Source of the DNA: Aphrocallistes beatrix
Lineage: Eukaryota; Porifera; Hexactinellida; Sceptrulophora; Aphrocallistidae
Assembly (NCBI GenBank): GCA_963281255.1
Contig: OY725495.1
Coordinates: 3,844,001 to 3,908,000, forward strand
Direction: 5' to 3'
DNA: 64,000 nucleotides
In this document: piece by piece, positions 7,401 through 44,702 of the stretch
How the letters are laid out: each line of letters begins with the position of its first letter
How positions within the stretch are numbered: the first letter of the stretch is position 1
Position numbers and translations under genes: made by a program
The notes under the pieces: generated by a model
What the model was told of the DNA's origin: nothing
The model's database searches: none
What the model saw: only the letters and a program-made list of their open reading frames with translations

Positions 7401-10400
7401 ATTGCATATATTCTTGTTTAGGACGAGGATACTGTATCGCCTAAAACTCGCAACAATCGAGTAACAAAGATTGAATACTACGCCAAGAGCAAGGAGAGTA
7501 CGTGGGAGGAGGTGAGGAAGGCTACACAGCAATTGGATGACCTCACATGTCCAGTGCATAAAGAATCAGGTAAGCGAGATTCAAATTCTGCATATTCTGT
7601 TGGTCTATTTATACGTAAGTAACCTTCCCCACTCATTCGTTGGCATTTTATTCCATTATGACGTCATTGAGAAAGAATATATGTCACTAGAGTTGGCATT
7701 TCGAGAGAGGTGAATAAATTGAAACAACTGGAATCAAATGGACTTGATGCATAAGATAGAACAGGGATGCATCTGTTTAGTTATGCAATTATAACTGATA
7801 GGATTTTGTCACATACTGTACATCTTGAATCGAACTGTCAGCCAACATTTAATTAAAGTAATAATAATACAAAAATTGATTATTGTTCTTTGACACTAAA
7901 GTACGTAATATAGAAATTCTATTAGTTACTATTTGCAAAGCTTGTTCAATAATCTATCAACTGAAGGTTTATTCTCCTTGTACCTTTTTCGAATGACGTA
8001 ACCCTGAACATTGCTCCAAACGCATACAAACACTCCTGTTCATATGGATGTTGTGAATAGTTCATTACCTCTCTTGGCGCCCATTTTAGACTATACTTGT
8101 TATCAATGATGAATACGTAGTCGTCAGAATAAGGATCGACACGAGAGCTGGAAGAAAAGCTTAACCATACAAACTGCTGTCCAATAAAGTACTTATCTGC
8201 ATCCTCTTCACTTAGTTCGCATTTTCTATACGTATTGCCTTGACAGGGCTTCAATTCCCTCCATTCCATCAAGATAGAATTCAACAGTAATGCAAAAGGA
8301 CTCAAACTCAGTTCAAGGCTCGTTGGTTTTTTAGCTTCTATGCTTTGATTTCTAAGCATACCATTCACAGCTTTGTAAAGTATCCTACGTTCCCCTGTAT
8401 ATAATTGAATAGTACGGATGATAAAATTCTCCTTACTATCTGGCAATAACTCTATACCCTCGAATCCCTTGTCTTTATCTCCTGTCAAAAGTTTGTTTCC
8501 TAACTGTTGTGAATATTGCTGAAGTGTTAAACTGACATTATTTTTTGCAATTATCCAATTATTCCCATAGTTGATATATCCAAATATGGACTTCATGACT
8601 TGAGATAATGTGCTTATCTTGATTTCATCAAAATTGCAATCATGTGGAATCAGAAATCCTTTACAGCATGCCAAAGTTAAGTAGATACAACTCCCCAACG
8701 GTTTTCCAAATTCACTTACCGGAAGAAAAGTTGGCTTTTCTAATTCAAGCGAAACCATGAGATCTCCTGGAATATTCAATAGGATATATTTTATTTGCTG
8801 AGACTTAGCTAGGTCTATAGGCTTTTTACCTGGTCCGTGCGCACCGTCTCTATCCTGCTTCGTTCTTATCTCAGAGTCACAGTCTGGGTAATTCAGCAGT
8901 TTTTGTACAGCCACTACATTGTCAAGGTAGACAGCCTGATGGAGTGCAGACCATGCTCTATCCTTTGGAATACAATTAACAATGTGAGGCTTTCCATCGA
9001 GTATCTTCCACACTGTCTCCCATTCTCCCGACTTAGCTGCTAGGACCATAGCATTAATGCTATCAGAGTCTCCCTTTAGATCCATTGAGGAGTGTATTTG
9101 AGGCAGTGTCTGCTAGGTAGGATGGATTGGTATGGTGATGAGTAGGACTCGCTGTGATTGTTTATTGAATGGTGGAAGGAGAGTTGAAGATTGAATTTGA
9201 TTGGTTAAATGAAAAGTGTTATTAGAACCTGAAAGGGATGAGTTCATCGACTTTAGCAATTAACGATTTCTTTAATATTTACTATTGTACTATCTTATAT
9301 AAGATCAATTTAGTACTAACTTATGACTAAACCTATTAACTGGTAGTAATAAGATACTCCTTTTATACTATATTTCCTTGAATAAGGTTTGTAATGCACT
9401 AAGTATCATTCTGTCATCCAATTAAATAAGATTAGTTCCATACGACTTGAAAAAACTGAGCTTAGTAGTATAATTTGTTGAAATGCTGCAGCTGCACATT
9501 AATAAAATTTACAATGGAAAAGTAGAAGATTTCGGTCGCCATACAGATAATGCCAGCGCTTTTTGACACCAACTAGTCAAACATCCTATTCTAGCTGTGA
9601 CTCGTACCCCTAAACCGTACCCCCCTGACTTTGTGGAGATGCGGTCCCCATATAGGGGAGGGGGCACAGCAAGGAGACTAAATCTCCAGAGCCTCACCTC
9701 CCCCCACGCCAGATCTAAGTACAAATATCGGATTTATTCTCCATAATGAAATGTCATAGTTTATTACTCTTTCAAATACAATAATTAATGCCATGGTTGC
9801 TAACAATATCACTCTAAGAATTACTAATTCAATAAAAGAAAAGGATAAAGCTTATCTTCTAAATCTTATATATACATATACATTGGTTTTTAATTAGGAA
9901 TGAGGAGTGGACGACGGAGGTGGTTTGTAGGGCTAAATCTTGTATGAACATAACCGAATCGATACTTTAGTTTTTTTACAATATTCCTGCCGAAAAATAC
10001 GATCGTAGCCAATAGGTATTGTGATCCGATTAGAATAGACGCAATTAAAAGTAGAATTGATGACGCATAGGTTTGGATCTCATGACTGAGTTTCAGCACT
10101 TTGATTTGCTGCTGTGAAACCAGTAGTGGCTGGTAGAGAGGAGTATGGTAGAGGTATTGGAAGATACAGGGACCATAGTGCAGACCTGTTACAATGAGGA
10201 AGTAATATTGTGAGATAAATTCTTTTAAAACCCAGCAAGCGAATGCAATAGCAAGTATCCCCATTACCAATGCGAAATGCTTGCAGTTGATGATTGCTCT
10301 TCTGACAATCGATTTCCTTTCCCCTCTTATCTTAAACTCGATTGCTCTCCATCTCAATGTGTTGTAGAATGTACGAGTGCATTTAATCCAAATAATGAAG

Positions 10401-13400
10401 TAGATTGTCTGTATTATTGGAACAGAGAACTTTTCAATGATCAATAATTGAGGAATAGACCCAGTTACTATCATGAATGCTCCAATGAAGAAAGTGATCA
10501 AGAGGAATTTTGTAATGTACCGAAATGGTTTTCCATGAATGTTATGGAGAATGACATCCAAATACTTCATTAGACAAACACTAAACGCGAAAGTGAGCAA
10601 CAATCCAACATCTCCCAAAGACACAAGTACAGGAACAACAGGATTAGTAAATATTACCTCTATGCTGATTAAAGGAAAATGTGCTAGTTCACTCGAACAA
10701 TTAAAATCTGTAGTTCTGTTGAAATCTCGCTGTTGATAAGCCAGTCCAGACCCTAATGCATATATTATCGCCGTGATGAACTCAGTGACATTTATGACTA
10801 TAAGGAATGTGTATTTGATTATTTCCGATTTGTGGTGACGTGCTGCTTCTGAGTAATTAACGGTGAATTCAGTTTTACTCTTTTCTACACACTCACGATA
10901 CAATTTCACGAAATGTATAATCCTCTTAGCAAAATAGACGTCCCATATGATGGATATAAATAAGAATAGTATAGCAACTGGCAGAATGATGATACTTTGT
11001 ATCATTTCAAATGACTTTAGATTTTCTCTAACACTTAACATATCCTGATAAAAATATTTTGAGATTCAATATTCATGAATTCAATCAGTCATTCTATATT
11101 TATACTGTTCTAATAGCCAATGATAGCCTTTATTTTTAAAGGGATTTATTTGGGGAATTTGATATTAATCCCAAGTAATTGCATGTAATAATACATCACT
11201 TTCGATAGTAAGCTTTTGTAATTGTGAGTATGCAGTCTTTAATATGTAATCAGTCGAACAAAGTCTTCAAGAAGTATATTACCTTAGTGATTTATTCTTT
11301 TAAACAGTACGTCAAATTACTAGAAGTTTAATATTCGATGTGTTAGCATCTGTTACTTTTAATTGACCAAAAAAAGAGAAGAAAATTTATAGATAGCCTT
11401 TATTTTTTAAAGCTATTGATTTTGAAATTTGATATTATCTCCAAGTAATTGTGTGTAGTATGCATCACTTTTAAGCTATTGAGTAATGTAAGTAATTTAT
11501 TTGAAGAAAATTGTACAAAGGTATAAATCATTCCTATTTATTGATTAGCCAACTAAATACGTATGGATTGTAATCATAATGTTGCAATTATGTAAAATAT
11601 CCCAAATCTAAGCACCTAGATAAGGCAAGATCATAGCCTACTCTAATAATGCCTCACAGTAAAATAACCAAGGATGCGGTAATAGCCGAATGGATTAATA
11701 CACGATTAGCCTAAAATCGTTAATCATGTAGGATAGGCATTAAGAATGTATTACCAGCATATATAAACATGGCATCAAAGTACATATATCCGTTGTCAAA
11801 ATTTCGATTAGTCATCATATCATTGCGCAACAGGTCATTCTAAGGACAATTTTGGCGATTTTCTAAGCTGTTTTAACCCTATTTTTAAATGGTATTAAGG
11901 TGTGATTTTTGTGTAGAACCAAGATTAGTACAAGGTGATTTGAATAATTTAGAAATTTTCAATGGAATGTTATTACATTCCTACGTTGCTATGGTAAAGC
12001 ATTTTGGTCAGTTTTGGCCATTTCATGCAAACTGTAAGAACTAGGTCTTACAATTTGATCGTATTCGATAGGCAATTGGCTACTTCCTATTAGGTAATAA
12101 TACAAATTTTACTTCTAAATTCACAGACTACAGAGTTATGCGACAATTTAGTGTTTGGTCACAATCTTAAAATCAACCCATAACTCAAAACTCCTTGAAT
12201 TTAGAAGTTCAAGTTGTATTATTACCTAATAAGAAGTAGTCCATTGCCTATCAAACACAATCAAATTTGGAGCTCTAATCATTACAGTTTGCATGAAATG
12301 GCCCAAACTGACCAAAATGCTTTACCATAGCAACGTAGGAATGCAACAACATTCCATTGAAAATTTCTAAACTTTTCAAATCACCTTGTACTAATCTTGG
12401 TTCTACACAAAAATCACACCTTAATACCATTTAGAAATAGGGTTAAAACAGCTTAGAAAATCGCTAAAATTGTCCTTAGAATGACCTGTTGCGCAATGAT
12501 ATGATGACTAATCGAAATTTTGACAACGGATATATGTACTTTGATACCATGTTTATATATGCTGGTAATACATTCTTAATGACTATTCTACATGGTTAAC
12601 GATTTTAGGCTAATCGTATATTAATCCATTCGGCTACTACTTCATCCCTAGTCCATGATTTTCAGTCTACTGTGAGGCATTATTAGAGTAGGCTATGGCA
12701 AGATCTTTAATATGTAATCACTCTATGCTCTGTGAAATATATTGCGTAAGGATAGGGTTGTAAAGGGCGGGAAACTTTCAGGGAATATTCCCGGGAATTT
12801 ATAAGACCTGGAAATTTTCGGGAATTTTGGGAATTTTCGTTTTTCTTTAATAATGAGAAATATTCAAAGATTTTAATGTGCCGGCTATAATATTGTATAG
12901 TGGCCCAGTTCTGAAATGCATTATTTTCCCTCGATAAGATAAGATCTTTAATACGTAATCGTTCTATTCTCTGAGGAATATCCTGTGTAAGAAATAAAAT
13001 TGTGTAAGATATAAAATCTTACGCTCTACTCCAGGGCAAATTAGTGGTGGCTATTGGATGTTCACTTTTCGATAATGATTAATAATCGAATGTTATTTAC
13101 GTATACAATGGAGTCTGCCGAAACGGACACTTCGAAAATCGGACGATCCGTATATAACCGACAAACCGATTTGAATGGAATGAATTCACTATACACGAAT
13201 ATAATAGTTAAGCACTCTCCGCGAGGAGAAAGACAAGAACCAAGTAATGTGTCCGTTATTCGGGGACTCCACGTATATGTATCGAATTTATTATATAACT
13301 GGACCTTTACTGGCCATGCATTATCTAGCTGAACATAATAGTTATGCTAAAACTAATCAATATCTTTAGAAATAAATCAAGTTTTATAACTTATAGTATT

Positions 13401-16400
13401 TATCGGGATATAAGATTGAAATTTCAATCGGATCCCACCGCTCAAATTTTTGTACAGACTTTTTCTACATTTTGTACTTTATTAATTTATTTGATTGAAC
13501 TAAATCAAGAACATTTCAGAGCCATGATTTATTTTGATTTTAAAAATGGTTTAAGTCAACCAGACTGCTTTGAAAGGCTTTCAAAATGTTTCATTCTGAT
13601 CCCGAATCTAAGCGACAATCAATGGCTTATTTCACTGAAGGTGGTCATTTGAAGACAGTGCCACTTGATGATCGTAAAAAGTTTGCATCTCTGAAGTTCT
13701 CTTAGTTTGGTATGAACGAAGACCAAAGGGTGGAACTTGAGGATTACTATGGCACTACGATAATGAACCAGCTCACACTGCCATTCGAACTTTGGATTTT
13801 TTAGAGTCAGAAGGGATTCAGATACTTCCACACCCGCCATATTCTCCTGATTTGGCCCCAGTGAATTCTTTTTGTTCCCTAAATTGAAAGGCATGCTCAA
13901 TGGAAGACAATTTTCAAGCAATGAAGAGGCCATAGATGTTTATTTTGAAGCGGGCTCGACCATCGAAATGAATGAGTGGGGAAAATATTCAAAAAATGGA
14001 TTGAAATGATGCAAAAGTGGATATAGATTGTAACCGAATATACTTTAAAAATTATAAAACATAGATCATAGTGTAGTGCTATTATTCTCCTTGAATCCGT
14101 AAGCTTTTAGCATGGCCCTTGTATATAGCAAGACAGCCGGTTATTTAGCATTTCAACAGTCTTATTACAGTGGTGTCTTTAGGGACTTTTTGTATTTAAT
14201 TGTATTTAATTCAGATTTAACACAATTCTAACAGTTAATACCTATTGTGAATACAAGCAACATCATATAACATAGGTAAATAGTGTAATTAAGGCATATG
14301 CATATTTAGTTTTTAATTAGGAATGAGGAGTGGACGACGGAGGTGGTTTGTAGGAGTAAATCTTGTGTGAACACATCCGAATCTGTACTTTAATTTGTTT
14401 ACAATATTCCTGCCGAAAAACAAGATCGTAGCCAATAGGTATTGTGATCCGATTAGAATAGACGCTGTGAAAAGTAGAATTGATGATGCATAGGTTTGGA
14501 CCTCATTACTTATTCCCAAGGCTGTGATTTGCTGCTGTGAAACCAGTAGTGGCTGGTAGAGAGGAGTATGGTAGAGATATTGGAAGATACAAGGACCATA
14601 ATGCAGACCTGTTACAATGAGGAAGTAATATTGTGAGATAAATTCTTTTAAAACCCAGCAAGCGAATGCAATAGCAAGTATCCCCATTACCAATGCGAAA
14701 TGCTTGCAGTTGATGATTGCTCTTCTGACAATCGATTTCCTTTCCCCTCTTATCTTAAACTCGATTGCTCTCCATCTCAATGTGTTGTAGAATGTACGAG
14801 TGCATTTAATCCAAATAATGAAGTAGATTGTCTGTATTATTGGAACAGAGAACTTTTCAATGATCAATAATTGAGGAATAGACCCAGTTACTATCATGAA
14901 TGCTCCAATGAAGAAAGTGATCAAGAGGAATTTTGTAATGTACTGAAATGGTTTTCCATGAATGTTATGGAGAATGACATCCAAATACTTCATTAGACAA
15001 ACACTAAACGCGAAAGTGAGCAACAATCCAACATCTCCCAAAGACACAAGTACAGGAACAACAGGATTAGCAAATATTACCTCTATGCTGATTAAAGGAA
15101 AATGTGCTAGTTCACTCGAACAATTAAAATCCGTAGTTCTGTTGAAATATCGCTGTTGATCAGCCAGTCCAGACCCTAATGCATATATTATCGCCGTGAT
15201 GAACTCAGTGACATTTATGACTATAAGGAATGTGTATTTGATTATTTCCGATTTGTGGTGACGTGCTGCTTCTGAGTAATTAACGGTGAATTCAGTTTTA
15301 CTCTTTTCTACACACTCACGATACAACTTCACGAAATGTATAATTCTCTTAGCAAAATAGACGTCCCATATGATGGATATAAATAAGAAAAGTATAGCAA
15401 CTGGCAGAATGATGATACTTTCTAATATTCCAAATGACTCTAGATTTTCTCCTACACTTAGCATATCCCGATAAAAATATTTGAGATTCAGTATTTATGA
15501 ATTCAATCATTGATTATATATTTATACTGTTCTAATAGCCAATGATAGCCTTTACTTTTAATGGCTTTTATTAGGGAAATTTGATATCTCCAAGTAATTG
15601 TGTGTAATACATTACTTTCAATAGTAAGCTATTGAGTAATGTAAGTAGTTTATTTGAATAAAATGTACAAAGGTACAGAACATTCTTATTAATTGATGAG
15701 TCAACTGATCAGGGATTGTAATAATAATAATAATAATCTTACAATTTTGCTTAAGATCCCAAATCCAACATTTCACTTTTCGACAATGATTCCTAATCGA
15801 ATGCTATTTACGTATACAGTGGAGTCTCCCAAAACAGACACTATGAAAAGTAGACAACTCCTCTGCAACGCACAAAACCATGTCCCAATGTGTCCGTTAT
15901 TCGGAGATTCCACCTTTTATATGCCGTATGTATTATCTAACTTGAGCGAGGACCTTTTAAGATCCGAAATCTACACATTGGAATTAGTAATAGTTGAAGA
16001 TATTGAATAAATTGCTCAACCGTAAGTAAAAAAGTAAATTATCAGCCTGTGTCGCAAGAGGTAATTCATTACCATCATGTATAGTGGTAAATAACGACTT
16101 ATGTGGCACAAGGTGGTAGTGATTGATAATTTGAAAAGTTGGGAATAAAATCCTACAATAAGCACGCGGCACCAGAGGGGGCCAGGAGGTGGCGAGATTT
16201 CAAGATTTTTGGACTAAGTTTGAGAGGTACTTGGTTTTATGGACACTCTCGAGTAAAATTGAGAGAACTTAACTCTTTACAAATTAAAGGGAGGAGCTTC
16301 ACAAGATCAAGACAGAAGTGGTAACAGAGTTGCACGCGGGCCGACTTTTCTTATCGGCCCGCGGGCTGTGCGGGCCGAAAATAATAGTTTGCGAGCCCAT

Positions 16401-19400
16401 GAGCCGGAAATCTTGGCAGAACTCCCCATGATGACAACTGAGACGATGTTTTTAATTGTCACGAGGTACCAACTAAGGAATACTTACGTAAATGGAACTT
16501 TGTTTGTTTCCACTTATTTTTGTTTGCAGAAGCTCACTCCCATAAAAGGATTGATTCCCTTAGTGTCTCTCTAGTTAGTAACTTACAAAGCGGGCCAAAA
16601 ATATTTATGCGGGCTTCTTGCGGGATGAATAAATTAGTTGCGGGCCACGGTTACAAATTTCGGCCCGCGTGCAACTCTGAGTGGTAATCGGCAGATTCGT
16701 GGAGAAAAATCGGAGCATAGTACTTGTATAGGCAAATCACATACGCGTATTCTGACTTGTTAATTAATAAGATACAAATTCTTGATTTGGATGAATATAG
16801 TTATATCAGGGCCGAAGCCACCAGACTGTAAATGGTCCGGTTGAACCCGAGTCAACCGTAGCAAATAAATAAAGTTGAATAGAATTCCGCACCGTAACAG
16901 TGGTTAATGCTCTGTATTTAGATATGATTGCATGAAAAAACAGTCCTCCCGATAAAATTGGCTGCCCCCCATGTTCGATAAACCCGGCGCCGCGCCTGCC
17001 AATAAGTAATTCGAATGCACAGATTTCGAATCAGAAATCCGATTCGTTTTATCACTTACCGTTTATAATTTTTTGTTCTTCGTGAATAGACCCATTTAGT
17101 ATTAAATGCACGTGAAATAATGAAGTATGCAAATACTTTTGCCCGGGTAGTGTACATAGCAAAACAGTCGGTTATTTGGCATTTCAACAGTCTTATTACA
17201 GTGGTAGCTTTGGGGACTTTTTTTATTGTATTTTATTCATATTTGACATATAATTAACAGTTAATATTGTCAATACAAATAGCATATTATAACATAGGTA
17301 TTAGTATAATTAAGGCATAGGTATATTTAGTTTTTAATTAGGAATGAGGAGTGGACGACGGAGGTTGTTTGTAGGAGTAAATCTTGTATGAACACATCCG
17401 AATCGATACTTTAATTTTTTTACAATTTTAATGCCGAAAAACAGGATCGTAGCCAATAGATATTCTGATCCGATTAAAATTGACGCTGTGAAAATTAGAA
17501 TTGATGACACATAGGCAATGACCTCATGAATGAGTTTCAATACTCTTATTTGCTGCTGTGAAACCAGTAGTGGCTGGTAGAGAGGAGTACGGTAGAGGTA
17601 TTGGAAGATACAGGGACCATAGTGCAGACCTGTTACAATGAGGAAGTAATATCGTGATAAGATTTCTGTTAAAATTAAACAGGCTGTTGCAATAGCAAGT
17701 ATCCCCATTACCAATGCGAACTGCTTGCAGTTGATGATTGCTTTTCTGACAATCGATTTCCTTTCCCCTCTTATCTTAAACTCGATTGCTCTCCATCTCA
17801 ATGTGTTGTAGAATGTACGAATGCATTTAATCCAAATAATGAAGTAGATTGTATCGATTATTGGAACAGATAACTTTTCAATGATCAATAATTGAGGAAT
17901 AGACCCAGTTACTATCATGAATGCTCCAATGAAGAAAGTGATCAAGAGGAATTTTGTAATGTACCGAAATGGTTTTCCATGAATGTTATGGAGAATGACA
18001 TCCAAATACTTCATTAGACAAACACTAAACGCAAGAGAGATCACAAACCCAACATCTCCCGAAGACACAAGTACAGGAACAACAGGATTAGCAAATGTCA
18101 CCTCTATGCTGATGAATGGAAAATTTGCTAGTTCACTCGAACAATTAAAATCTGTAGTTCTGTTGAAATCTCGCTGTTGATAAGCCAGTCCAGACCCTAA
18201 TGCGTATGTTAGCATCGTAATGAACTCAGTGACATTTATGACTATAAGGAATGTGTATTTGATTATTTCCGATTTGTGGTGACGTGCTGCTTCTGAGTAA
18301 TTAACGGTGAATTCAGTTTTACTCTTTTCTACACACTCACGATACGACTTCACGAAATGTATAATCCTCTTAGCAAAATAGACGTCCCACATGATGGATA
18401 TAAATGAGAGAAGCAGAACACCTGGCAGAATGATGATGCATTCTAATGTTCCAAATGATTTTAGATTTTCTCCTACACTTAACATATTCTGATAAAAATA
18501 TTTGAGATTCTGTATTTATGAATTCAATCAGTGATTATATATTTATACTGTTCTAATAGCCAATGATAGCCTTTACTTTTATTGGCTATTGATTGGGACA
18601 TTTGATATTATCTCCAAGTAATTGTGTGTAATACATTACTTTCAATAGTAAGTAATTGAGTAATGTAAGTAATTTATTTGAGGAAAATGTACAAAGGTAC
18701 AGACCACTCTTATTAAATGATGAGTCAACTGCACAGGGATTGTAACCATCATCTTACAATTTTGTGTAAGATCCCAAATCTAGCACTTCACTTTCGACAA
18801 TAATTACTTATCGAATTCTATTTACGTGTACAGTGGAGTCTCCCAAAACAGACACTAGGAAAAGCGGACAACTCCTCTGCAACGGGCCATATCCCGATGT
18901 GTGCGTTATTCCGACTCCACTGTATATGTACCGTATTTATCAGCTAACTTGAGCTAGGATCTTTACTGGCTATCCATCATCTAGCTCAGTGGTTCCAAAC
19001 CTTTTTTGTCATTCGCCCCTTTTGCTAAATTTCATTTGCAAATCGCCTTCTTTTTAATTTCTAACCTGATGACTAGAGTTTTTAAATTAAGTATATGATT
19101 TAATTAAATTAGTTAATTACAACGAAATACTAAATGATTCTAACATACGCATTAGCCATGCCCTATTGATAGTGAGGTTGCTGTGTTTGATGTTTACATA
19201 ACTTTTCCACGTCAGGCTTAAATTTAGTCAGAGCTATATCTAGGCGTAAATCGCCCCTGTTGTGACATTTAATTTATTTCTTCTACCAGTCAAGAGGCTG
19301 TTCACTTTGCTGAAACCACTTTCCACGAGGTTTGAAGTTGGGAATGCAGTCAATAATAAACTTCTGCCACATCATTGATTTCACTATTATATCAGGATGA

Positions 19401-22400
19401 GTCCATGATGCATGATAACCACCATTTTCAAATCTGCTTGCGGCACCCATGTCGTACTTTATATCAGTAATTTCCTCTTGGATTATTATATCACAGAACT
19501 TGAATCTATTGAGAAAGGATCTAAAATCCACAGATTGATATGTAATTGATTCAAATCACTGATGCGATTGAGCATATCCTGTCGCATCGGTTTTAGGTGC
19601 TCTGTAAATAATAATATACAAACGTGCTTCCTTGCTTGAGCTGCGCGGCTGGCGGACACTTTGTGTCTGCCGAAGAGGCCCTTTGGGCGTCTGGGGCCAA
19701 ATTGATTAATTATATAGGAGATAAAATCTCTAAATGCGTCTGTCCTACTGCTATAATCGATATCGCACAAAAATCACTAAATTTTCCATTTATACAAGCG
19801 CGCTTCGCTTGCTTGTATAAACAAAGATTCATCAAGTTTTAACAGTATGGATATTCAAGATAGCCCATCATTTGGCATTTTAACAGTCTTGTAAAAAGGG
19901 TATCCTTACAGTGGCTTCCTTAGGGACTTTTTATTGTATTTAATTCAGATTTAAAATATATCAGTTAATATTGTGAATACAAACAGCATAATATAACACA
20001 GGTATTAGTATAATAAATATCAAACATTATTTTAAACTATTTAGTTTTATTTTGGAATGAGGAGTGGACGACGAAGGTTGTTTGTAGGAGTAAATCTTGT
20101 GTCAACACATCCGAATCGATACTTTAATTTGTTTACAATATTCCTGCCGAAAAATACGATCGTAGCCAATAGGTATTGTGATCCCCCTAAAATAGACGCT
20201 GTGAAAATTAGAATTGATGACACATAAGTAAGGACCTCATCACTGAGTTTAAGCACTTTGATTTGCTGCTGTGAAACCAGTAGTGGCTGGTAGAGAGGAG
20301 TATGGTAGAGGTATTGGAAGATACAGGGACCATAATGCAGACCTGTTACAATGAGGAAGTAATATCGTGATAAGATTTCAGTTAAAGTCCAGCAGGCGAC
20401 TACGATGGCAAATATGCTCATTACCAATGCGAACTGTTTGCAGTTGATGATTGCTCTTCTGACAATCGATTTCCTTTCCCCTCTTATCTTAAACTCGATT
20501 GCTCTCCATCTCAATGTGTTGTAGAATGTACGAGTGCATTTAACCCAAATAATGAAGTAGATTGTCGCTATTATTGGAACAGAGAACTTTTCAATGATCA
20601 ATAATTGAGGAATAGACCCAGTTACTATCATGAATGCTCCAATGAAGAAAGTGATTAAGAGGAATTTTGTAATGTACCGAAATGGTTTACCATGAATGTT
20701 ATGGAGAATGACATCCAGATACTTCATAAGACAAACACCAAACGCAAGAGAGAGCAACAGCCCAACATCTCCCAAAGACACAAGCACAGGTACAACCGGA
20801 TTAGCAAAAATGACCTCTATGCTAATGAATGGAAAATGTGCTAGTTCACTCGAACAATTAAAATCCGTAGTTCTGTTGAAATCTCGCTGTTGATTAGCCA
20901 GTCCAGACCCTAATGCGTATGTTAGCATCGAAATGAACTCAGTGACATTTATGACTATCAAGAATGTGTATTTGATTATTTCCGATTTGTGGTGATGTGC
21001 TGCTTCTGAGTAATTAACGGTGAATTCAGTTTTACTCTTTTCTACACACTCACGATACAACTTCACGAAATTTATAATCCTCTTAGCAAAATAGACGTCC
21101 CACATGATAGATGTAAATAAGAATAGTATTGCGATTGCCAGAATGATGATACTTTCTAATATTCCAAATGGCTTTATATTTTCTCCTACACTTAGCACAT
21201 CCCGATAAAAATATTTGAGATTCAGTATTTAATGAATTCAATCAGTGATTATATATTTATACTGTTCTAAGAGCCAATGATAGCCTTTACTATTAATGGC
21301 TATTGATTGGGAAATTTGATATTATCTCCAAGTAATTGTGTGTAATACATTACTTTCAATTGTAAGCTATTGTGTAATGTAAGTAATTTATTTGAAGAAA
21401 ATGTACGTGTAAGGTACAAACTACTCTAATTTATTGATGGGTCAACTGATCAGGGATTGTAATCATAATCTTGCAATTTTGTGTAAGATCCCAAATCATA
21501 CATTTCACTTTTCGACAATGCTTCCTAATCGAATACATTAAATAACTCCTCTGCAACGGGCAAAAACATGTCCCCAAACTATCCGTTATTCAGACTCCAC
21601 TGTATATGTACTGTATGTACTGTGTTATCAGAAAACTTGAGCTAGGATCTTACTGGCTATCCATCATCTAGCTCAGTGGTTCCAAACCTTTTTTCTCATT
21701 CGCCCCTTTTGCCAAATTTCGTTTGCAAATCGCCTCCTTTGTTAATTTCTAACCTGACGACTAGAGTTTGGAAATTACGTATGTGATTTAATTAAATTAA
21801 TTAATTACAACGAAATACTCAATGATTCTAACATACACATTAGCCTATTGATAGTGAGATTGGTTTGTTTGATGTGTTTACATTCAAATCACTGAAGCGA
21901 TTGAGCATGTCCTGTCGCATTGGTTTTTGGAGCTCTGTAAATAATATTATACAAGCGTGCTTCGCTTGCTTGAGCTGCGCGGCTGGCGGACACTTTGTGT
22001 CCTCCGGAGGCGCCCTTTGGGCTTCTGGGGTCAGATTGATTAATTATAAGGGAGATGACATCTCTAAATACGTCTGTCCTACTGTTATAGTCGATGTCGC
22101 ACAAAAATCACTAAATTTGCCAATTTAAAAATGTTTTTTTGATGTGTGATGATGACGTCATAACAGAGTGTTGAGTCATCATTTTTTGTTGATACTTGCA
22201 TCATATGCAAAGTATATTAATCAGGGTTGGATTTTAACCCGGGTTAAATAGGTTTTGCCCAGCCCAGTGGGTTAAACCCGGGTTAAAACGGGTTTTATTG
22301 TCCAGAAACGGATTTTCCCAGTTATTGTCCTTGTTTTCAAATTCAACGATATAATTACAGTCAGGTTCGCTTATTATGAACCCGCTTAATATGAACATTC

Positions 22401-25400
22401 GTTTATTATGAACTAATTCTCTGGTCCCAATTCAACAGGTTCCATAGGATTTATATTAGGTCGAGTTCGCTTAATATGAAGTCTCTCTATTATGAACAGA
22501 CTTTTTGGTCCCCAAGGTGTTCATAATAAGCGACCCTGACTGTAATTATATAAGCGTACTTATTGTAAGAAGTGCATATCAAAATCTAATACACTAGTGA
22601 AAATCTAAAACAAATGAAAAGCAAATCACCAGTCAAACTCCACTGAACCTCTCAATTCGTGATAACAGGTTACCAATTTTGCTGGTTCTCTAAGTCTAAT
22701 CTATTTCGAAGTTTGTTCTGGACTAAACTAAAGTTAGAAAATATCCGCTCAATTGAAGCATTTAGGCCCTTCACCTTAGACCTACTTTTAGAAAAAAAGC
22801 TTTGAACAGGATCACTGGGCCACAAACAAAACTAACATTATACATGTAGTAACCGCTATGATTAGAGTAGGTAAGATGAACAAACTGCTCTACATATATA
22901 ATAGTAGTATCCTTTGATTGTTTACTTAAAGCACCTCAGATTGTTGTAACTTTTAAGAAATTCCATTGTTCGTACATCAGGTCTTATTAAAAATATCATT
23001 ACGGAATCTCAATACAATACTTGCAGAATAAGAATTTTCAATCCAAACAATTGATATCGCTAAAATTAACTTGATTTACAAGTACATTAGAATAAAACCC
23101 ACTTTAACCCAGTTTAACCCACAAAAGGGGGTTTTGCCCAGCCCGGGTTTAACCCGGGTTTAACCCGGGGGGTGGGTTAAATTAGCCAACCCTGATATTA
23201 ATCTACACATTCTATTAAAATTTCGGCCTTCTATCACCCAAAATTGCTGAGTTATAGTCTTGAGTTATAGTCTTATTATATAAAGGTGACAATGACGTCA
23301 TAATTCCATGATGAGTCGACCTTTTCGTCTGAAGTCAGAACTTAGTGGAGCCTTAGCCAAAAACTCCCACATGCCAACAATCAAACGTATGTATATAACA
23401 AAGCTAAATCGAGTTTTAATAGTAGGGATATATCAAGATAGCCCGTTATTTGGCATTTTAACAGTCTTGTAAAAAGGGTATCCTTACAGTGGCTTCCTTA
23501 GGGACTTTTTATTGTATTTAATTCAGATTTAAAATATATCAGTTAATACTGTGAATACAAACAGCATAATATAACACAGGTATTAGTATAATTAAATAAT
23601 AAATATCAAACATTATTTAGTTTTTATTTTGGAATGAGGAGTGGACGACGGAGGTGGTTTGTAGGAGTAAATCTTGTATGAACACATCCGAATCGATACT
23701 TTAATTTGTTTACAATATTCCTGCCGAAAAACAGGATCGTAGCCAATAGATATTCTGATCCCCCTAAAATAGACGCTGTGAAAATTAGAATTGATGACAC
23801 ATAAGTAAGGACCTCATCACTGAGTTTCAGCACTTTGATCTGCTGCTGTGAAACCAGTAGTGGCTGGTAGAGAGGAGTATGGTAGAGGTATTGGAAGATA
23901 CAGGGACCATAATGCAGACCTGTTACAATGAGGAAGTAATATCGTGTGATGAGTTCGTTTAAAACTGGACAGGCTGCTGCAATAGCAAATATGCTCATTA
24001 CCAATGCGAACTGCTTGCAGTTGATGATTGCTCTTCTGACAATCGATTTCCTCTCCCCTCTTATCTTAAACTCAAGTGCTCTCCATCTCAATGTGTTGTA
24101 GAATGTACGAGTGCATTTAACCCAAATAATGAAATAGATTGTCTGTATTATTGGAACAGATGACTATCAAGAATGTGTATTTGATTATTTCCGATTTGTG
24201 GTGACGTGCTGCTTCTGAGTAATTAACGGTGAATTCAGTTTTACTCTTTTCTACACACTCACGATACGACTTCACGAAATGTATAATCCTCTTAGCAAAA
24301 TAGACGTCCCATATGATGGATATAAATAAGAATAGTATTGCGATTGCCAGAATGATGATACTTTCTATTATTCCAAATGATTTTAGATTTTCTCCTGTGC
24401 TTAACATATCCCGATAAAAATATTTGAGATTCAGTATTTATGAATTCAATCAATGATTCTATATTTATACTGTTTTAATAGCCAATGGTAACTTATACTT
24501 TTAATGGATTTTGATTGGGGAATTTGATATTAATACCAAGTAATTGCATGTGATAACACTTTACTTTCAATAGCAAGCATTTGTAATTATGAGTACGCAG
24601 TCTTTAAATGTAATCAGTCGAACAAAGTCTTCAAGGAATACATTACCTTAGTGATTTATTATTTTAAACAGAACGTTGAATTACTAGAAGTTTAATATTC
24701 GATGTGTTAGCATCTGTTATTTTTAATTGGCAAAAAAAGGGAGGAAAATCTGATTTGTACCGAAGATATCTCGTGCAAACTTAGTTGTTTGTTTTTTGAA
24801 CTTTTAAACTGGGAAACTATAATGTTTTACATTTAATCCTTCCCTTCTCCTTTGCTTTTCTGGTACGTAATTGTAGTAATAATTGTAACAGCTTCTTACT
24901 GTGTTAAACGACTCTTCAATATTATGTTAAGTATTTGGCATTTGTGCATATTACTAAGTATTATCTTGACAGCATCACATTTGAAATTATTCATAATCTA
25001 TGATACAGTATAATCTGCATAATCCGGGGTTTAGCTCATGAATATGCATAGTGTTGGATTATCAATAAAAACTTTTTACATTATCCAATGATTGGGTGTA
25101 CAAACAATGGAGAATTAATTAGGCTGCGCTGTACTATATGTTTGTTAATATAGACCAGAGGCCGGCAACCTTTTGAATGTTGGTCAGTTTACCTATAATG
25201 TCAATATATTTATGACCTTGTGTGCCAGTGGCACGCCTGCCTAGGGTTACCGACTCCTGAATATACATAAATGTCGGTCTGTCGACCTACATACACTAAC
25301 CGGACAAAAGTATTTCAATACTTGATTATTTCCCATACAAATAATACTAAAATGGGTCTATTCAAGAGGATTACTTCTAAACGGTATGGGATACAGCTAG

Positions 25401-39334: not shown

Positions 39335-40960
39335 CGTGTTAATAGGTGAGTCGACACATTTTAAAAGTTATTTGGAATTTCTAAGGAGAATAAGCGTTTT
39401 TATCGAGATTTAAAGGCTCAAAGGAAACGATCAATGCAATGTTAATTCTAGAACAAAACAGTAATTTAAAGTTATTCACACCCTCTATGCGTAGATTATT
39501 CATTTAAACAAAAAAACAATTATGCTCTTATCCAGCAGTTATCATTGAAATAAAAGAAGCATTATATATAACTATACAACTTTTGAAAGTCATTGTTAAT
39601 TGCAATATTAGTTGGTCGGCTATCTAGCTACAAGAACGTTGATGATAGTTTCTCATGGTTTGGTGGAGAGACAAAAGTATTTATTATTTGCAATTATCTC
39701 CCTTTGAAAGTAAGCTTACTATTGAGTCTACGGGGAGAGTTATCTTTTTGGTCTAAAACTCAAGTAAAATTATCTCTGATGCGCAATGTGCCTTAACTTA
39801 ACATTCGGTAAAATGGATCGATTTTGAAAATTTCAAAAATGCCTTGTTTTGGACAAGGAACTTAAACTTACTATTCTCAACATAAAGCCCCCGAGGGGGC
39901 TTTTGAAATATCAAATTAGTCAATGGTCCACCAACTTACAAAGGGATCTTTTTGCGAAATTTCAAATTCCAATCCTTCGCGGAAGCATAACTCGTCGAAT
40001 TTTTGCTATCTTAACTGCTCAGAATCGAATAAGAACTCTTCGCGAGTTATGATATTTTGTTGTTCAAACACCACGGGAAATTAGAGAGACCTTAACTTAT
40101 AATAACTTATCTTGATTCAGCATCAAGATAGCATGAAGACTCGCTGAGCTATGCTTCCACAAAGATTGGGGTTGGAAATTTTTCAAAAAGACCCCTTTGC
40201 AAGTTGTTGCTCCGTGTTTCAATGACATCCGTCAAATGTTTGTTGGGAGTCCCTATACCACTGGATTGATTGAAAAGTCCCTAAAACGCTAGCGCTTTAG
40301 AGTTGAGGGCACCAAAAACGCGTTTACACTGATTCCCACAGTTATCCACACTAAACATTTTTAATAATAATATTTTCATTTCTATCTCTTCGTAATCTTG
40401 AGATATTAGCTTTTGACTATTTTAGAAAATGATGACACGGCATATTTCTTTAAACATCAATAAGTCTGCTAACTCATTTCTGGTTAAGTTATTTGGGCGA
40501 GGGCCATGAAATCGGTGTTCAAATTATAAATAGAATGGACCGCGTGCCATTTGCCGTTAATATCTAAAAGTGATTTCTCACAAATGATAATCAACCTTGT
40601 GGTTTTAGTGCATCTTTTGCTGATTGAATGTACTCACCTCTTCGATGGATTAGTCATTTTGGTAGAGGGATGTACGTAGATCATAGACAAACGTTACTGA
40701 AGGGAGCCCACCCTTCAGTAACATTTTTAAAGTTGATTAGAATTTTAAGGACAATAAACATTTTTATTGATTTTAAAGGCTCAAAGAGAATGATCAATGC
40801 AATTTTGATTCTAGAACAAAATAGAAGTTTGAAGTTGATCACACGATTTACACCCTTTCTACGTAGCTTATTCACTCAAAAAAACAATTATGCTTTTACC
40901 CAGCATTTTTTGTAGAATTGAATTATTGGATAATTACTGAAATAAAAGAAAAATTAGATA
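39335..40960 (+). repeat. R2 dispersed repeat, copies 1
   Basis: A long non-coding repeat. Markers are GTGAGTCGACACATTTTAAA at its start, a TTGGTCGGCTATCT segment, a perfect hairpin AAAGCCCCC-GA-GGGGGCTTT near 39885, and GGGAGTCCCTATACCACTGG near its end. A second partial stretch runs 40560-40960. Other copies are at 43985-44230, 45035-47190 (split by a LINE), 51355-52390, 58930-59230 and 60965-61370. There is no ORF across copies and no recognised ends, so class is unknown. Confidence 0.7.
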
Positions 40961-43448: not shown

Positions 43449-43779
43449 CTTTCAGTTTTTTCCTTATTGAATTCTACAAAGGATATTAGTAAATAATTAA
43501 TATCATACTTTCCATTGATTTATTTCTAACTACAGTATAGCTTCTTTTTACGCGATTTTGAATTCGTTTCACGCGGTTTTGTCTATGATTTTTAAGAATC
43601 AATTCTCTTTAATTTCGAAATTTTAAATTATTGTTGATATTTAATGCCAACAAAGCGGAAATCTAAAATGCCACTCAAGAATTCACAAAAGAGGATGAAT
43701 TCGATGTTTGATTTAAAAAATACATAATGACCTAGAAACGATTTTGCCAGCTAGAATAATACGATATCTATTTACAGAT

Positions 43780-43974
43780 GGGGTCGCGGTGAGTAACGGA
43801 GGACCACCGGGAAGCGGCAGGACTCCGCAGGAGGCAGGAGCGGCCATTAAGTAAGCGCCCCGGCAATAAGGAAGCGTGACCAAGATAGGATCACGGGGTC
43901 GAGGGTCACCCTCTTGATGAGTCCCTGAAATGGGACGAAACCCCACTCGTAACGGCTCGGCAGACCGACTCGTC
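43780..43974 (+). mobile_element. GC-rich SINE-like insertion carrying a hammerhead
   Basis: A 195-bp block far richer in G+C than its surroundings, flanked by a 7-bp direct repeat TACAGAT (43773-43779, 43975-43981), consistent with a target duplication. It begins GGGGTCGCGG, and the same GGGGTC recurs at the hammerhead cleavage site 115 bp downstream. It ends with a second copy of an ACTCGTAACGG/GAGTAACGG-like motif near both termini. No ORF. Hammerhead-bearing short retroelements (Sm-alpha type in schistosomes, Penelope-related and retrozyme elements) are known; the class here is inference. Confidence 0.6.
43895..43944 (+). ncRNA. Hammerhead ribozyme (type III-like)
   Basis: The fold is read directly from the sequence. 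Stem III is GGGG (43895-43898) with CCCC (43941-43944). The cleavage triplet GUC ends at 43900. Stem I is GAGGG-UCA-CCCUC (43901-43913). The core is UUGAUGA (43914-43920). Stem II is GUCCC-UGAAAU-GGGAC (43921-43936), followed by GAAA (43937-43940). Everything matches the hammerhead consensus except core position C3, which is U; that pairs with G8 and may weaken but not necessarily abolish cleavage. Predicted cut is between 43900 and 43901. Confidence 0.72.
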
Positions 43975-44702
43975 TACAGATCAGTTGAACTAACGATTAT
44001 TACATCTCCGTTTGAAAGTAAGCTTATGATGAAGTATTCAATCCAGAACTGCGTCCACTTTTGTGAATAGTTTCTTTTTAGAAACTGTTTAAGACACCAG
44101 TTCTGTTATCGAATGGAATGTTTTTCTCTAGCTTGAACAACTTGATTATTATCGATTTGCATATAGGTTAATGATGGAGTGCAAATCCTCCTCGAATAGA
44201 TTAAAATTAGGATATCCTGTTAGTTGATTTCGTAGATTTATTAAATATTTGAAATTCCACAATTCTACTTGTATTTTAATGGAACTGCTCTATCATCTGT
44301 CGATCTGCATATTCTCTAGTTTCCCAGTCAAATTGGTTCCTTAAATTTTCACAGGTACCATATACGTATTTCAGCCCTCGAATAATCCCCCCCCCCCAAA
44401 GAGGGTGCTATTTTTAGTGGTCAATGTGACTAAAATTAATAATCGCCTCGGCTAATAACCGAAGATGTACGGTACTAATATCAAATTAAATATTTGGATT
44501 CAGGGGCGGTTCTAGGATATTTCTTATAGGAGGTTGTCTAGAGCATCGTGTTTGTTTGGTGTACAGAAAACTCAGCTGGAGGTCTGGGGGTGCTGTAAGC
44601 CCCCCAGTGGGGTCCAGGTGCGAAGCCTCTCGAAGCTGGAACCAACAGAAAGTAGCACCCGGAAAAAAATTCACTTTTAGTATATACGTGTAGTATATGT
44701 TA

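Follow-up and report, generated by a model that had tools for sequence, protein, structure and literature searches.

Hammerhead ribozymes of animal genomes have been described mostly as type I motifs tied to non-LTR retroelements, and those of type III mostly from plants, viroids and infectious RNA circles, as the available parts of two accounts have it (PMC4918200, PMC7761336). In plant LTR retrozymes, type III hammerheads lie within the LTRs; the accessible portions of the relevant reports (PMC4918200, PMC7229834) give these elements LTRs of 300–400 bp, 4-bp target site duplications (TSDs), solo LTRs and a GC content above 55%. Type III hammerheads have also been mentioned for insects, and for the HDV-like RNAs found in toads and termites (PMC7761336, in the part available), and thus the type is not unheard of in animals. 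Among the titles and abstract openings listed by searches of open PMC papers, none describes an LTR-type retrozyme from an animal, or a DNA transposon, Ginger or other, that contains a hammerhead.

The stretch of DNA analysed here (the window) is 64 kb long and corresponds to positions 3844001–3908000 of contig C9; the genome searched comprised 100.5 Mb in 28 contigs. The single gathering-level Rfam match across the window is a hammerhead on the forward strand at 43893–43946 (RF00008, Hammerhead_3; 54.7 bits, E 2.3e-9, gathering score 48.5). This motif is a genuine type III hammerhead ribozyme, and it is carried by a dispersed mobile element. The three stems, the GUC triplet and the GAUGA/GAAA core that a first-pass annotation had read from the sequence are confirmed by the sequence and by this score; stem III is open, and loops close stems I and II. 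The ribozyme is composed as follows.

43893..43946, forward strand: type III hammerhead ribozyme (Rfam RF00008, covariation, own model R1)
43895..43899, forward strand: 5' arm of stem III, with its partner at 43940–43944 (Rfam, covariation, fold)
43900, forward strand: C17 of the GUC triplet by consensus position, with predicted cleavage 3' of this base
43901..43913, forward strand: stem-loop I, 43901–43905 pairing with 43909–43913 (Rfam, covariation, fold)
43914..43920, forward strand: core CUGAUGA, which in the window reads UUGAUGA (C3 to U at 43914)
43921..43936, forward strand: stem-loop II, 43921–43925 pairing with 43932–43936 (Rfam, covariation, fold)
43937..43940, forward strand: core GAAA (sequence reading and Rfam)

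Our own covariance model R1 gave the window hammerhead 80.2 bits, a value to which the window copy contributes as one of the 20 training rows. The hammerhead is also the minimum-energy structure of 43885–43950. The folding energy of this segment is unremarkable given its composition (z -0.77; 40 of 200 shuffles equally good), and that of the 195-nt block delimited at first pass is likewise ordinary (z -0.55). The case for the ribozyme thus rests on conservation and not on energy. C3 is required for hammerhead catalysis, and the core CUGAUGA...GAAA is incomplete in the window copy, where U3 at 43914, already pointed out in the first-pass annotation, is confirmed as the sole core deviation. A claim of activity for the window copy therefore falls, and with U3 and the lost 5' end of the element its hammerhead is probably inactive. 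The assignment to RF00008 holds by score and covariation despite U3.

The 195-bp block, used as a query against the genome DNA, returned 22 matches; the window is one of these, and two belong to a single locus. The RF00008 search, one of the checks proposed at first pass, yielded at least 25 matches in the genome, of which at least 12 exceeded the cut-off; both counts are lower bounds from 68 scored of 13,935 candidates. The same model produced zero matches in 14 control genomes. The copies were sorted by eye into four groups.

Group A: the window copy and L002–L014, with L007 and L010 a duplicate pair by their common flanks
Group B: L016, L019, L021 and L045
Group C, heterogeneous: L015, L017, L018, L020, L030, L039 and L042
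Group D: L040, L041, L043, L044 and L047

Twenty copies from groups A, B and C were aligned for covariation, leaving out group D as well as L002, L009, L011, L012 and L014, which are without an RF00008 match. In this alignment 91.2% of the cells are paired, and stem variation is compensatory, with two-sided changes in six of 15 pairs (11 cells). When partners were slid by 1–3 columns as a control, 46–60% of cells were paired and 2–4 pairs showed two-sided changes. Shuffling attained six two-sided pairs in 2 of 500 cases; this test is inflated by the relatedness of the copies, and the slid control weighs more. C3, whose conservation among genomic copies had likewise been singled out at first pass, is retained in 19 of the 20 aligned copies. 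Outside the alignment, L002 has U3 too, together with a broken stem, L012 and L014 carry other core changes, the core of L009 is lost and L011 is cut inside stem-loop II. Judged from the relatives in this genome, the pattern suggests that selection kept the hammerhead motif working.

Comparison with the other copies and with the surrounding repeats redefines the borders of the window copy.

43780..44004, forward strand: family-A element copy without its 5'-terminal 9 nt, by alignment with L002–L005, L007, L008, L010 and L013
43975..43981, forward strand: right TACAGAT, internal to the element; of ten other copies that include this region, six share the heptamer
44005..44187, forward strand: right flank, part of the local repeat that holds the element, with relatives at 39697, 45296 and 51713
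43536..43779, no strand assigned: dispersed repeat R, unrelated to the element and directly next to its truncated 5' end, with 11 other genome matches

The first-pass annotation had taken 43780–43974 as the insertion, which is too short. The copy ends in ..ATTATTACA, and the family-A 3'-end match stops at 44004; the matches of the three relatives of the right flank begin exactly at 44005, and these relatives are alike also to the left of that point, with no break. Three uninterrupted relatives thus place the 3' junction of the element at 44004/44005. In the relatives the insertion point lies between ..GCAATTA and TCTCC.., and the left half is missing at the window copy. TACAGATCA and a common tail to ..TTATTACA are present in six of ten other family-A copies with the 3' region (L003, L004, L005, L006, L009 and L013); L002 has TACAGCTCA, and L007, L008 and L010 have a diverged tail. 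At the other end, the missing 9 nt are TGTAGTATC in most other copies possessing that end. Six of the 11 other genome matches of repeat R end at window position 43779 or 43780. GATATCTATTTACAGAT is present in two of three fetched copies of this repeat (L097 and L098), where the repeat continues beyond it, and was not found in L099 with up to 3 mismatches allowed. By appearance, the left junction stems from a later rearrangement in which the element would have lost its first 9 nt together with the left flank.

The local repeat occurs at least four times in the window (39697, 44005, 45296 and 51713), the copy at 44005 harbouring the hammerhead element. Among the open reading frames (ORFs) of the window are some for C-type lectin and NHL-repeat proteins, which give the genome an animal-like look, and 9890–24091 on the reverse strand holds a cluster of similar 383-aa ORFs, four complete and one partial; two of these, when tested, had no Pfam match.

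These borders bear on the origin proposed at first pass, in which self-cleavage of a multimeric RNA gave rise to a 195-bp unit with a 7-bp direct repeat at its borders, a proposal that drew on two short repeats. TACAGAT is indeed found at 43773 and 43975, but it was rejected as a target duplication. Its left copy (43773–43779) sits inside repeat R and its right copy inside the element, and since the two belong to different repeats, the repetition is a coincidence. GGGGTC does occur both at the start of the window copy (43780) and at the cleavage site (43895), but the former is private to this copy: other copies have GGGGCC or a variant there, 0 of 10 have GGGGTC, and the nearest is GGGATC in L012. 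Moreover, the ends of the element are far from the ribozyme cut, which falls after 43900 in the window copy. The aligned copies thus refute this origin, and we give it practically no credence.

Twelve units possess both ends; they measure 180–256 bp and have a GC content of 51–62% (51–54% in family A, 61–62% in family B). Ten of them start with TGT (exceptions L003 and L021) and ten end with ACA (exceptions L002 and L019), and the ends form imperfect inverted repeats of about 10 bp (TGTAGTA-TCG / TGTAATAATCG). An exact 5-bp flank repeat is found in seven of 11 units (L002, L004, L005, L007, L008, L016 and L045), whereas none of 110 flank cross pairs is identical; among the four units without an exact duplication, L003 agrees at four of five bases, L013 and L021 at three and L019 at none. 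L010 was dropped from this count as a duplicate of L007, and units missing an end, the window copy included, stand outside it. The ends were picked from the alignment of the copies, a choice that the duplications partly guided. An alignment-free scan of 20 loci, which sought TG..CA together with an identical 5-mer, recovered the same ends at L004, L005, L007, L008, L010, L016 and L045. It also gave two spurious candidates at L019, with three matching terminal bases, and lower-scoring ones at L008, L017 and L020, and it gave no candidate for the window copy, L003 or L013. L009 (C4:557984–558107), an apparently 5'-truncated family-A copy, has an 8-bp flanking repeat (CTAGCTAA) that departs from the 5-bp duplication pattern of the other copies.

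Recurrent ends combined with a 5-bp duplication argue for insertion by a DDE integrase or transposase and against target-primed insertion of the LINE or PLE kind; they point to integrase- or transposase-like insertion that would not take place at the ribozyme cut. This bears on the published animal type, the non-LTR retrozyme, in which tandem type I repeats are moved by a LINE or PLE. The unit size does fall inside the 150–450 bp of that type, and the hammerhead resides in an animal-like genome. However, it is of type III rather than type I, the units are dispersed and single with no tandem arrangement, the GC content of the 12 measured units (51–62%) is higher than the published values, which are below 50%, and the duplication of 5 bp is shorter than the 15 bp given for Nematostella in the available part of PMC7229834. 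Topology and arrangement already contradict such an origin, which we regard as very improbable. It is similarly improbable that a viroid-like or satellite circular RNA was copied into the genome. Agents of this sort typically carry type III hammerheads, which also occur in the HDV-like RNAs cited above (PMC7761336, in the part available), but recurrent ends and 5-bp duplications are found in many copies and permuted ends were seen in none. Likewise, the self-pairing of the 195-nt block is nothing unusual, and the 44-base ribozyme pattern has no exact match in viral contigs; searches of viral and prokaryote contigs with exact ribozyme patterns gave 0 matches.

Given these data we lean, if only slightly, towards regarding 43780–44004 as a degraded, 5'-truncated copy from a low-copy family of units of about 180–256 bp that would be analogous to the solo LTR of an LTR retrozyme. 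The first-pass annotation had rightly seen a dispersed element with a hammerhead but recognised no partner for it; plant LTR retrozymes are a partner-like kind. By this analogy, a transcript spanning a two-LTR parent would be cut at the hammerhead in each LTR, and the released RNA would be circularised. The circle would then be copied by the reverse transcriptase of an LTR retrotransposon, and the resulting DNA would be inserted by an integrase with a 5-bp target duplication. What is observed is the fold of the ribozyme, supported by compensatory changes, together with ends that recur and duplications of 5 bp; we infer cleavage, RNA circles, reverse transcription and the LTR nature of the units.

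Two units around an internal region were not encountered among the genome matches to the DNA query, to RF00008 and to the family-A 3' end. In the last of these searches all ten matches were known family-A units, and the genome yielded no further element whose ends are those of family A; one further 18-base match to a family-A end, L055, has no element behind it. Two pairs of family-B units lie 8–9 kb apart in the same orientation, L019/L021 on C9 and L045 with C3:296959, and neither pair is likely to represent the two LTRs of a single element. Against the second pair, L045 is flanked by a 5-bp duplication of its own; the outer flanks of L019 and L021 do not match, and L019 is nearer to L016 (93.0%) than to L021 (91.3%).

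The family-C units L015 (C9:720426) and L017 (C9:721445) are inverted, about 1 kb apart, and flank a reverse transcriptase (RT) fragment. This RT was considered as an autonomous partner and rejected, its relative L084 running past the end of the L015 frame; a nested insertion is the likelier explanation. A PDB search with the RT piece gave 0 matches. This RT has 76 matches in the genome, and all the others, judged by eye, lie more than 10 kb from any listed RF00008 match, which also makes nesting the likelier case. L084:1–1207, located on C9 15–20 kb from its end, is a tandem array of identical 159-bp units that adjoins a 700-aa ORF with reverse-transcriptase similarity.

The main rival to a retrozyme origin takes the units for MITE-like DNA elements that a DDE transposase or Gypsy-type integrase would move by cut and paste, the hammerhead being cargo that trims transcripts. 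We consider this rather unlikely while giving it some weight. It would account for every unit with a target duplication being single, and for short imperfect inverted ends together with a 5-bp duplication. In addition, Ginger1-like DNA transposons of the same genome carry a hammerhead on the 3' side of their OTU region, and the 5' end of one of them, TGTTGTATCG of L094, equals the family-A end TGTAGTATCG at nine of ten bases. However, a 10-base likeness between two TGT-starting ends is weak, both Ginger1-like elements that were read have 4-bp duplications and inverted repeats of 96 and 109 bp as against 5 bp and about 10 bp in family A, and the genome search for family-A ends revealed no other element.

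A related hammerhead pattern, CTGATGAG-N8-22-CGAAACAC, is present at 19 places in the genome and at 0 in a reversed control. Fifteen of the 19 lie 81–362 nt downstream of an OTU-protease match on the same strand, 14 of them within 226 nt; no listed OTU match accompanies the remaining four, of which three are on C1 and one is on C2. The OTU search gave at least 152 matches from 150 scored of 493 candidates, and the exact hammerhead pattern is known behind only a minority of them. Hammerheads 3' of the OTU region are located at L094:6197–6256 and L082:7009–7067, and also in L040, L041, L043, L044 and L085–L093. L090–L093 are four near-identical copies, which suggests recent movement. A second arrangement, CTGATGATGACC(T/A)ATGGA(G/A)GGTCGAAAC, is hammerhead-like with an extra U before stem II; it occurs at no fewer than three places among the matches listed, C1:2778180 (reverse strand), C2:1748887 and C2:2347628 (both forward strand), by eye about 125–255 nt behind OTU matches. 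A short hammerhead pattern was too loose (532 matches versus 246 in the reversed control).

The two elements read at length, L094 and L082, look like Ginger1 DNA transposons. L094 has inverted repeats of 109 bp, 99.1% identical, at 1697–1805 and 8107–8215; its rve integrase core scores 31.8 bits (E 1.8e-7), slightly below the cut-off of 32.6, and its OTU domain 37.1 bits (E 5.2e-9) over a cut-off of 23.3. L082 has 96-bp inverted repeats; L043, a relative nearly identical to it, has an OTU that scores 39.2 bits. A zinc finger (H2C2) and a GPY-like motif were read by eye, and by eye no reverse transcriptase was seen among the reading frames of L094 and L082. Both elements are flanked on both sides by GTGC; a third Ginger1-like copy has GGGC, seen at its 3' side only. 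L094 starts with TGTTG, which fits the Ginger1 TGTNR, and L082 with TGTTT, which does not. The Ginger1-linked hammerheads score 32.9–38.2 with RF00008, under the cut-off of 48.5. Nine distinct sequences of this hammerhead group show two-sided changes in seven of 16 pairs, compared with 0–2 pairs in slid controls and 0 of 500 shuffles; five of the eight changed cells stem from L047, which has no listed OTU match nearby, and the number of pair types, eight, is not above shuffles (199/500).

Tentatively, and with rather more doubt than conviction, we propose that in this animal lineage type III hammerheads may be a regular part of elements inserted by Gypsy-type integrases, both short LTR- or MITE-like units such as the window copy and Ginger1-like DNA transposons. 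In the latter, cleavage of the transposase mRNA downstream of the stop codon would strip it of its poly(A) tail. If so, self-cleavage would be a control on cut-and-paste transposition and not part of copying through RNA. The combination of a type III family that covaries, in short integrase-type units, with recurrent hammerheads behind the OTU of Ginger1-like elements would widen the hosts and jobs of this motif, and would point to a way in which animals could come to have LTR-type retrozymes or viroid-like RNAs.

Several known systems share features with these elements, as far as the available parts of the respective reports describe them. The D/E elements of this genome are like Ginger1 (Bao 2010, PMC2836005) in having a Gypsy-type integrase, a C-terminal OTU, long terminal inverted repeats, ends that start with TGTT and 4-bp TSDs. 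Unlike Ginger1, their TSD is GTGC and not CCGG or CCGT, and their OTU region is followed closely on its 3' side by a type III hammerhead, a feature unmentioned in the accessible part of that report. Penelope-like elements and Terminons (PMC6431247, PMC7229834, in part) likewise are animal mobile elements linked to a hammerhead, but their hammerheads are minimal ones of type I in the terminal repeats or at the 3' end of retroelements. Metazoan non-LTR retrozymes (Cervera 2020, PMC7229834, in part) share short non-coding units with hammerheads in animal genomes, and differ by type I motifs, tandem arrangement, a GC content below 50%, larger TSDs and no LTR features. Compared with plant LTR retrozymes (Cervera 2016, PMC4918200, in part), the present units belong to an animal-like genome, are 180–256 bp long rather than 300–400 bp, have in family A a GC content of 51–54% rather than above 55%, and were seen only singly, without a two-LTR copy, PBS or PPT. 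They resemble them in carrying a type III hammerhead in an LTR-like unit, in being dispersed as single units and in a target duplication that is short and fixed, 5 bp in seven of 11 units here and 4 bp in plants. By analogy, plant LTR retrozymes, in the form of their solo LTRs, are the nearest known thing to the window element.
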